The translations under genes were made by a program, and so were the position numbers. Below are positions 152 through 5,493 of a DNA stretch of 64,000 nt, piece after piece. Source of the stretch: Microcaldota archaeon (GTDB lineage: Archaea; Micrarchaeota; Micrarchaeia; Micrarchaeales; CABMGC01); NCBI GenBank assembly GCA_021851065.1, contig JAJZJQ010000003.1:1-64000 (forward strand), read 5' to 3'. The notes beneath the pieces are model-generated. The model searched no databases. It was not told the DNA's origin and saw only the letters and a list, made by a program, of their open reading frames with translations. The stretch's first letter is position 1, and the number at the start of each line of letters is the position of its first letter.

Positions 152-271
152 AGTTTAATCAGTTGTTAGTTTAAATGGTGCACCAACCCCTGCACAGGTT
201 ATCTGATGCTCTATCTGGCATTCGTCTCTTCTATATTCCGCAAGAGCTCCTTAGAGGAACTGCGCAAGATA

Positions 272-1252
272 ATGAAATTCAAGATAGTCGGGGAATTCAA
301 CAACTTTCTTGTTATAGACTCGCGCAGCAAGAATGCACATGTGAAAACTGCAGGATTGGCGCTGGTTTACTTCGTCTTGCCGCTATATGTAAATGGCAGC
401 GTCAGCAAGGACGCATACCGCGAGTCCATACTAAGGCTGCTTTGTGATGCTGCAGTGGACAAGGGAGGTAACATGAAACTCGAGTGCATCAATCTCAACA
501 GCAAAACAGTTTATTCTGCAAAGGACCTTGAGGTATGGGAGGGGAGACGCCTTGAGAAGCTTGGATATGCAATAGACATGGAGAAGGAGCCTGTGACGCT
601 GGTTTACTTCGCTCTCCTTGACATGAAGTGCTATGTCGGGCACATGAAGGTTGCAGATATGCCAAGGCCATTCGTAAACCCGTTTAGGCATTACCACACA
701 CAGAGGCTTGTAAGCAGATCCGAGCTCAAGATAGAACAGGCATTCGATGAATTCGCCATAGATGGGGTAAGCGGAGTTGCGATTGATCTTGGGGCAGCGC
801 CTGGAGGATGGAGCTGCTATCTGGCAAGGAGAGGATATGACGTTATAGCAGTGGACAATGGGAAGCTTGATGCCAAGGCAATAAGGGAGTGCGGAGTGAA
901 AATAAAGACGGCAAAAGGCGGCAGGATAGGCACAGGGGACCTGGTAAGGGGCATACTTCACGTGAAGGAAAGATCGGCACAGGCTGCAGGAAGACTTAAG
1001 GTAAGAGGCGTCAGCCTTCTGGCAGACGACATGAACATCGACTGCTCTTCAACGTACAAAGCGCTGAGCAGATACTCGCAGTTCCTGGATAGCGGAGGGC
1101 TGGCAATAGTCACGATTAAATGCATAACAAAGTACCTTCCAGGGCATGCCAGAAAGGCAAGGAAGCTGTTCTCCGCTGGATTTAGGATCAGGAGAATGAG
1201 GGTGCTTCCTGCAAACAGGCAGGAATTCACCCTGTTTATCGAGAAGAAGTAA
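272..1252 (+). CDS. FtsJ/RlmM-type SAM-dependent RNA 2'-O-methyltransferase
   Basis: Predicted 326-residue cytosolic methyltransferase acting on RNA. The Rossmann core carries the SAM-binding motif DLGAAPGGWS (about residues 172-181). The four catalytic positions of the FtsJ family are all visible: Lys153 (SRSELK), Asp252 (LADD), Lys283 (VTIK) and Glu318 (NRQEF). The N-terminal 140 residues have no motif I recognise and probably bind the RNA, as in RlmM-like proteins. The ORF track starts at 206, but ATG 272 begins a better N-terminus (MKFKIVGEF). The stop lies one base from the 3' end of the RNase P RNA on the other strand. The target RNA is unknown. Confidence 0.8.
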   Translation: MKFKIVGEFNNFLVIDSRSKNAHVKTAGLALVYFVLPLYVNGSVSKDAYRESILRLLCDAAVDKGGNMKLECINLNSKTVYSAKDLEVWEGRRLEKLGYAIDMEKEPVTLVYFALLDMKCYVGHMKVADMPRPFVNPFRHYHTQRLVSRSELKIEQAFDEFAIDGVSGVAIDLGAAPGGWSCYLARRGYDVIAVDNGKLDAKAIRECGVKIKTAKGGRIGTGDLVRGILHVKERSAQAAGRLKVRGVSLLADDMNIDCSSTYKALSRYSQFLDSGGLAIVTIKCITKYLPGHARKARKLFSAGFRIRRMRVLPANRQEFTLFIEKK

Positions 1253-1253
1253 T

Positions 1254-1490
1254 GTGGTGTGCCGTAGCCCCCCTTCTGTTTTAGGTGGCATTTGACTAAG
1301 CGGCCTTCTAGGCCTTGCATGCTCATTGTGCGCGCATCGGCCGTTTCACCTGCACCGGCGCGCTCGTAGCGTCATCGCTTTATGCGCCGCAGCAGTATCG
1401 TTTCTGTTCCGAATCAGGCATTACACCACACGCACTCTGCATGGGGAGAGCTTCCTCAGTCACATGGACCGTGAGCCACCCGCACACCAC
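1254..1490 (-). ncRNA. rnpB: RNase P RNA, archaeal type A, compact (about 237 nt)
   Basis: Read on the minus strand, the region has the universal RNase P RNA elements in order: TGAGGAAGCTC (5' strand of the P4 core), GGAACAGAAACG, GGTGAAACGGCC, and near the 3' end AAACAGAAGGGGGGCTAC (3' core). Helices can be drawn directly. P1 pairs GTGGTGTGC (1490-1482) with GCACACCAC (1262-1254). P2 pairs GGTGGC (1480-1475) with GCCACC (1289-1284). P3 is a TCAC/GTGA hairpin (1474-1460). A further perfect hairpin, GGCCT-AGA-AGGCC, precedes the 3' P2 strand. A TATA box lies about 25-30 bases upstream. The RNA would cut 5' leaders off pre-tRNAs with protein partners. It is short for a type A RNA, so some distal helices must be reduced. 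The ORFs drawn over it are shadows. Confidence 0.9.
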
Positions 1491-1512
1491 GATAGGACTA
1501 TGCAAAAAGTGA

Positions 1513-1520
1513 TATAAATA
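1513..1520. promoter_or_regulatory. Two-way TATA box for RNase P RNA (-) and the BofA-like gene (+)
   Basis: TATAAATA sits 20-27 bases before ATG 1540 on the plus strand. On the minus strand it sits 23-30 bases before the predicted RNase P RNA 5' end at 1490. No other AT-rich box lies between the two transcripts, so one TBP site seems to serve both directions. Confidence 0.6.
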
Positions 1521-5001: not shown

Positions 5002-5493
5002 TTAGGCGGCCTCCTTTGGAGGCTCGGCAGGCTTTGGCTCTGCAGGCTTCTCAGTCGCAGGCTTTGCGGTCTTCTCCTTCTTAGGCTTCTCTGTCTTGGG
5101 CTTGGCTGCGTCAGGCTGTTTTGCCTGCTTTGAGGCAGGCTCAGTGGCAGACTTTCCAGTTGCCTTTGCTATTACCTCCTTGACTATCTGCTCTCCCTGC
5201 CCGGCCTTCTCTATCGCTATTGCAGAGCATGGAACGTTTATGCCGACTGCATTGCCTATCTCCTGCTTGGTAGGCACATATACGAACGGTATCTTCTTCT
5301 GCTCGCAGAGCGTTGGTATGTGCATTACCACTTCCTTCGGTTCCACATCCTCGGCGATAAGCACAAGGGTTGCGAGATTTCTCTCTACACTCTTTGTGAC
5401 TTCATTGACCCCTTTCTTGACGGAGCCGCCCTGCTTTGCCATTTTAGCTGCTTCAAGTGCCCTGTCGGACACCTCTTTTGGTACGTTTGCCAT
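5002..5493 (-). CDS. rpl7ae: Ribosomal protein L7Ae with Lys/Pro/Ala-rich C-terminal tail
   Basis: L7Ae binds kink-turns in 23S rRNA, in C/D and H/ACA guide RNAs and in many archaeal RNase P RNAs. Residues 1-120 form the typical fold, with GVNEVTKSVERN and LVLIAEDVEPKEVVMHIP as the K-turn-binding signature. The last 43 residues are an added Ala/Lys/Pro/Glu tail. ATG 5493 is preceded by GAGGTG six bases upstream, a good Shine-Dalgarno site, and by a TATA box about 100 bases upstream, so this message has a leader. Confidence 0.95.
   Translation of the reverse strand: MANVPKEVSDRALEAAKMAKQGGSVKKGVNEVTKSVERNLATLVLIAEDVEPKEVVMHIPTLCEQKKIPFVYVPTKQEIGNAVGINVPCSAIAIEKAGQGEQIVKEVIAKATGKSATEPASKQAKQPDAAKPKTEKPKKEKTAKPATEKPAEPKPAEPPKEAA

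Follow-up and report, generated by a model that had tools for sequence, protein, structure and literature searches.

An RNase P RNA gene of apparent type M architecture in an order of Candidatus Micrarchaeota, and direct repeats of its 3′ end in relatives

Positions 1254-1490 of the minus strand of the window, by which we mean the whole 64-kb stretch of DNA that was analysed, very probably hold the single, functional archaeal RNase P RNA (RPR) gene of its genome, with type M architecture and with a product that acts as a ribonucleoprotein. RNase P RNA is a tRNA-trimming ribozyme, and the host is a tiny acid-loving archaeon, a member of Candidatus Micrarchaeota. The gene is best regarded as real, ordinary and essential; the most interesting part of the analysis is a side result at its 3′ end, where several relatives carry inserts bordered by duplicated RPR ends.

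The RNase P RNA gene and its fold

A cmscan search matches the archaeal RNase P model RF00373 to 1254-1490 (-) with a score of 116.2 bits (E 8.3e-32; gathering score 84 bits), and model positions 1-288 are covered completely between 1490 and 1254; in an Rfam scan of the stretch no other family scores above RF00373 at this place. This is the only RF00373 match in the host genome (36 contigs, 1,132,126 bases), a single-copy count that holds for these 36 contigs of a genome estimated to be 87.5% complete. The earlier note had placed an archaeal RPR at exactly these ends, with a P1 of nine perfect pairs and the other blocks in order on the minus strand, and had proposed an Rfam search, a drawing of the fold and a look for a better RPR elsewhere in the genome. 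The search bears out the placement, with a score above the gathering threshold; no second match was found in the incomplete assembly; and all of the blocks could be located, in the order P1, GAGGAAGCTC, ACAGAAACG, GGTGAAACGGCC and ACAGAAGGGGGGC. Conserved regions CR-I to CR-V are likewise present in order, both in the model alignment and in the alignment of relatives, and we judge the open reading frames that overlap the region to be spurious. The features of the gene and its surroundings are as follows.

206-1252, plus strand: FtsJ-like 2′-O-methyltransferase gene (PF01728, 6.5e-11), convergent, 1 nt from the RPR 3′ end
1254-1490, minus strand: rnpB, the RPR gene, 237 nt; RF00373 match, covariation in 48 relatives
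1482-1490, minus strand: P1 5′ strand, pairing with 1254-1262; 9 pairs, 6 with two-sided changes, 99.5% paired
1475-1480, minus strand: P2 5′ strand, pairing with 1284-1289; 6 pairs, 5 two-sided
1457-1471, minus strand: P3 hairpin; 5 pairs, 4 two-sided
1444-1452, minus strand: P4 5′ strand with the universal bulged U, forming a pseudoknot with 1266-1273; 8 pairs, 100% paired, 4 two-sided
1439-1443, minus strand: P5 5′ strand, pairing with 1318-1322; 3 of 5 pairs two-sided
1431-1435, minus strand: P7 5′ strand, pairing with 1328-1332; 5 of 5 pairs two-sided
1417-1427, minus strand: P9 hairpin; 4 of 4 pairs two-sided
1409-1411, minus strand: P11 5′ strand, pairing with 1338-1340
1399-1407, minus strand: CR-II ACAGAAACG, 5′ part of the T-loop module, near-invariant in the 48 relatives
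1384-1395, minus strand: P12 and P12.1 5′ strands, pairing with 1350-1361; 10 of 10 pairs two-sided
1362-1378, minus strand: P12 tip, GC-GAU-GA-CGCUAC-GA-GC, a K-loop-like predicted L7Ae site with a 3-nt bulge and tandem G.A
1339-1349, minus strand: CR-III GUGAAACGGCC, 3′ part of the T-loop module (model and relatives' alignments)
1315-1317, minus strand: J5/15, CAA, conserved; a probable A-anchor by homology to L5-15 of M. jannaschii (PMC6565675)
1302-1314, minus strand: mini-P15 hairpin without P16/P17 or an L15 RCCA-binding loop; 5 pairs, all two-sided
1287-1302, minus strand: CR-IV CGCUUAGUCAAAUGCC (model and relatives' alignments)
1266-1273, minus strand: P4 3′ strand, part of CR-V (covariation alignment)
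1254-1262, minus strand: P1 3′ strand (covariation alignment)
1512-1518, minus strand: putative TATA box, TTTATAT, 21 bp upstream of the RPR 5′ end
5002-5493, minus strand: gene for L7Ae (eL8), an RNase P and ribosomal protein (TIGR03677, 140.9 bits; matches to L7Ae in the PDB reach 9e-35)

The one-base gap between the RPR 3′ end and the methyltransferase stop codon is as the earlier note had described it, with the FtsJ-like reading frame ending at 1252, and an FtsJ-like gene is the downstream neighbour of the RPR gene in many relatives. At the other end, most RPRs of the order have a TTTATATA-like box at a similar distance upstream.

The fold was drawn by hand and its pairs were counted in an alignment of 48 RPRs from both families of the order. 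Standard pairs occupy 97.0% of the 2,922 cells, and two-sided changes are seen in 48 of 62 pairs against a shuffle mean of 27.3, with none of 500 shuffles reaching the observed value on any measure; we conclude that the fold is more than chance. When partners are slid by one to three columns as a control, pairing falls to 29-42%. Compensatory changes back P1, P2, P3, the P4 pseudoknot, P5, P7, P9, P12, P12.1 and mini-P15, and the bulged U of P4 is invariant in the alignment. The folding energy of the single sequence is unremarkable (z -1.48), and being uninformative it was set aside as support for the RPR.

Inserts at the 3′ end of the gene in relatives

In two genomes of one genus (G032 and G273), and in G142 and G047, a direct repeat of the final 42-65 bp of the RPR stands 1,344-1,729 bp downstream; locus L119 has a 16-bp copy about 0.75 kb downstream. 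These RPR 3′-end duplications, of 16-65 bp around inserts of 0.8-1.7 kb, fall into four lineages.

L189, 631-2427: RPR 3′-end duplication and insert
L102, 1903-3699: RPR 3′-end duplication and insert
L185, 3887-5399: RPR 3′-end duplication and insert
L258, 1435-2846: RPR 3′-end duplication and insert
L119: RPR 3′-end duplication (16 bp) and insert

In all four lineages the right edge of the repeat is the RPR 3′ terminus itself or lies within a base or two of it. Among the 164 genomes of the order, a second copy of the RPR 3′ end was found in G032, G273, G142 and G047, with G204 and G252 ambiguous, and a reversed-pattern control gave a second copy in none of the 164. We did not count G204, in which the RPR 3′ end lies on two contig ends and could be an assembly overlap, and we dropped a 16-nt RPR repeat at L105, which is inside a coding sequence.

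The inserts of G032 and G273 carry AbiEi/AbiEii, as does that of G142, which is a separate event in the opposite orientation; the L119 insert carries VapB/VapC, and that of G047 encodes a 409-residue AAA ATPase resembling the candidate defence family PDC-S01. There are no integrase genes in any of the 0.8-1.7-kb inserts; tyrosine recombinases are encoded elsewhere in the insert-bearing genomes, and some of these are probably the host XerA. Empty sites with matching flanks are found in G034 for the G142 insert (FtsJ) and at L063, L077 and L184 for the G047 insert (TFB gene). The site is also empty in the window itself, where a single base separates the RPR 3′ end from the FtsJ stop codon and the 64 kb contain no second copy of that end.

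Taken together, the repeats and inserts look like the signature of site-specific integration into the 3′ end of the RPR gene by cargo-only inserts. Two marks of an integrated element are seen, namely a direct repeat that restores the gene and an empty site in relatives, and a third, an integrase encoded by the element, is absent. We give roughly even odds to a reading in which a recombinase of the host or of a helper mobilises the inserts in trans and the window holds a site left empty. A less probable but still serious reading is that the duplicated ends arose by chance homologous or illegitimate recombination at insertion, and not by a site-specific integrase acting on the RPR; in its favour, the inserts have no integrase and one of the repeats is just 16 bp. 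Against chance recombination, the right boundary is common to all four separate lineages, matches of at least 13 nt to the RPR 3′ end occur downstream and never upstream of the RPR at 142 loci, the cargo always consists of toxin-antitoxin-like or candidate-defence genes, and the relatives with an empty site have the same flanks. No paper in the literature searched describes integration with rnpB as the target, or the RPR gene as a landing site of mobile toxin-antitoxin units; those papers checked that mention both rnpB and integrase terms do not describe integration into rnpB.

Architecture and its distribution

Type M RPRs are characterised by the loss of P8 and L15 and, in Methanococci and Archaeoglobi, have lengths of about 235 to 258 nt (PMC7191817); in the 252-nt RPR of M. 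jannaschii P15 is small and lacks the RCCA element, and a K-turn lies beyond P12 (PMC6565675). In the cmscan alignment of the RPR described here P8 is missing, as a gap between P7 and P9, and the distance from P4 to CR-II is short across the whole order, which fits the absence of P8. A 34-nt deletion relative to the model covers P6/P16/P17, and a covarying 13-nt P15 hairpin stands in its place; because J5/7 is only 3 nt and this hairpin replaces P15-P16-P17, neither P6 nor a tRNA-CCA-reading L15 is possible. The P6 pseudoknot with P16/P17 and the L15 of type A are thus both lacking, whereas CR-II, CR-III and P12, the S-domain parts that are lost in type T/P, are all present, with P12 covarying. 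Judged by these alignments, the RPR at 1254-1490 appears to be of type M architecture, with no P8, no P6/P16/P17/L15 and a length within 235-258 nt; for type M, 237 nt is an ordinary size and not an unusually compact one.

The earlier note had described a compact type A RPR with several distal helices reduced. The reduction is confirmed, with P6, P8, P16 and P17 gone and P15 present only as a mini-hairpin, and the RNA is indeed shorter than usual for type A, but the type A label is wrong, the absence of P6, P8, P16, P17 and L15 being that of type M. It is very improbable that this is a true type A RPR in which P6, P8 and P16 are merely shortened, since the 3-nt J5/7 and the 3-5-nt loop of the P15 hairpin leave no P6, P8 is deleted in the model alignment, and the covariation of mini-P15 throughout the order is that of a closed hairpin. 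What can be said for the type A reading is that two members of the same class (L032 and L034) retain a long P15-P16-P17-like insertion, which makes a type A-like ancestor plausible.

The reduction is not peculiar to this genome, as it is common to the whole order (228-244 nt), with RPRs of 235-244 nt in the family of the window and of 228-239 nt in its sister family. The rest of the class spans a wider range, from 191 to 340 nt. The simplest reading of these sequences is a reduction within Micrarchaeota, parallel to that in the methanogens. The type M architecture, which published work links with Methanococci and Archaeoglobi, is extended here to a whole Micrarchaeota order, backed by compensatory changes. 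We found no earlier description of a type M-like RPR from this phylum in the literature searched. A 2026 study (PMC12974513) reports losses of P6/P16/P17 and of P8 across several archaeal lineages and attributes them to protein support; its main text leaves Micrarchaeota and DPANN unmentioned and lists P9 as fully conserved.

Several further observations concern RPRs of the class at large. In most members of the sister family (L016, L055-L066) P3 has shrunk to an ACC-GAAA-GG hairpin. RPRs of 201-221 nt from further families of the class (L044, L071, L195, L209, L226 and L068) have lost distal P12 and its K-turn and keep CR-II/CR-III, a route opposite to that of type T, and Rpp21 is retained. 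At L067 (1999-2189, plus strand) a 191-nt RPR has neither P8 nor P9, and P7, P10 and P11 are fused in one continuous helix in the predicted fold (z -5.7), which appears to break the fully conserved status given to P9 in PMC12974513. A pattern combining the P12 tip with CR-III (18 specified bases plus a variable gap) was scanned against 257 Gb and matches sequences in Candidatus Micrarchaeota, including the closed genome of Candidatus Micrarchaeum sp. A_DKE; the archaeal matches alone were used, the bacterial ones being set aside because they occur at about chance frequency in 257 Gb. FK_Sedi records titled Candidatus Marsarchaeota (L157, L102 and others) bear Micrarchaeota-type RPRs, and their titles look misassigned. 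Two bins contain two distinct full RPRs each, G025 (L002 and L073) and G252 (C27 and C33), and were rejected as probable contamination, on the grounds that G025 is 5% contaminated and that L002 is unlike its order.

The Micrarchaeota thus offer a graded series, from RPRs of deeper relatives in the class that keep P8 and P15-P17-like elements to others as short as 191 nt, for testing the replacement of RNA by protein in RNase P.

Protein partners, tRNA substrates and comparison with known systems

The tip of P12 reads as a K-loop: a short C-helix is joined by a three-base bulge and two G.A pairs, and a loop replaces the second helix of a K-turn. The motif GC-NRU-GA-(4-8 nt)-CGAGC is present in 49 of 49 RPRs examined from the order and in none of 50 other RPRs examined, and relatives in the class have, by sequence, K-turn-like motifs at the same place in P12 in which one or two further pairs follow the G.A pairs. 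The closing pair of the K-loop is invariant, as is the motif, so covariation cannot test it, and RNAalifold places different pairs within the loop. L7Ae sites lie in P12 and P16 of type A RPRs and in P12 alone of type M (PMC4245976). Since only the P12-tip motif remains here, one predicted L7Ae site is left as against two in type A, and the RPR should hold one L7Ae. The suggestion in the earlier note of more dependence on L7Ae is therefore unsupported, although its statement that L7Ae is also encoded here is correct; what would be expected from type M is a greater dependence on the proteins taken all together. The L7Ae of the window has a C-terminal tail of about 50 residues past the conserved domain, rich in A, K, P and E.

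Pop5, Rpp21 and Rpp29 are encoded in the host genome, above curated cut-offs in profile searches; for Rpp30 there is no Pfam, NCBIfam or PDB profile match in that genome. A reading frame of about 165 residues on contig C19 (L054, 907-1407, plus strand) lies just upstream of Pop5, whose start it overlaps, and aligns with counterparts in relatives, four of which give sub-threshold PF01876 matches, beside Pop5 in the cases examined. Because profile searches failed in the host genome, we base its identity on position, synteny and these relatives' matches, and its product seems to be a short, divergent Rpp30-like protein (compare 212 residues for P. horikoshii Rpp30), of a kind that falls below or outside the Pfam profile across the order. 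All 25 genomes searched lack the protein-only RNase P HARP (PF08745), in agreement with the report that HARP is found in no DPANN member (PMC6380272). We regard as negligible the chance that the RPR of the window is a decayed or second copy, with the working enzyme, another RPR or HARP, elsewhere: the incompleteness of the genome (87.5%) leaves some room for this, but all conserved regions are intact with strong compensatory change, the RF00373 match is the sole one, relatives also have one RPR copy in the orthologous place, and HARP is lacking.

An encoded 3′ CCA is lacking from all 31 distinct tRNA genes on the Micrarchaeota loci covered (nearly all of them from this order), including the tRNA-Leu gene of the window. 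The absence of L15 fits tRNA genes without CCA, paralleling the argument made for M. jannaschii (PMC6565675), and the coincidence of L15 loss with CCA-less tRNA genes is a testable link.

We envisage that the RPR gene is read leftwards from a TATA promoter of its own and abuts the convergent FtsJ gene at its end, and that the RNA product, which keeps the catalytic core (P1-P5, the P4 pseudoknot and CR-I/IV/V) and the T-loop module (CR-II/III on P11/P12), would cleave pre-tRNA leaders as a ribonucleoprotein, by homology to the M. jannaschii enzyme. The particle may comprise (Pop5-Rpp30)2, Rpp21-Rpp29 and one L7Ae on the P12-tip K-loop, with proteins substituting for the lost RNA struts and the tRNA 3′-CCA presumably going unread.

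Among known systems, the RPR most resembles type M, as found in Methanocaldococcus jannaschii, other Methanococci and Archaeoglobus, in lacking P8 and P6/P16/P17, in having a small P15 without an RCCA-reading L15, and in retaining the T-loop module and the P12 extension. It differs from the type M members known so far in belonging to another phylum and in its short, divergent Rpp30-like partner, and from M. jannaschii in particular in that the P12 tip is K-loop-like, whereas M. jannaschii has a K-turn and a P12.2 stem. With type A (Pyrococcus, Methanothermobacter) it shares the core, P9, the P10-12 T-loop module and, as predicted here, an L7Ae site at the P12 tip, but type A has in addition P6, P8, P15-P16-P17, L15 and a second L7Ae K-turn in P16 (PMC4245976). 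Small size is common to this RPR and the type T/P RNAs of Thermoproteaceae (Pyrobaculum); in type T, however, most of the S-domain is gone, CR-II/CR-III and P12 with it (PMC7191817), and the S-domain is present here.
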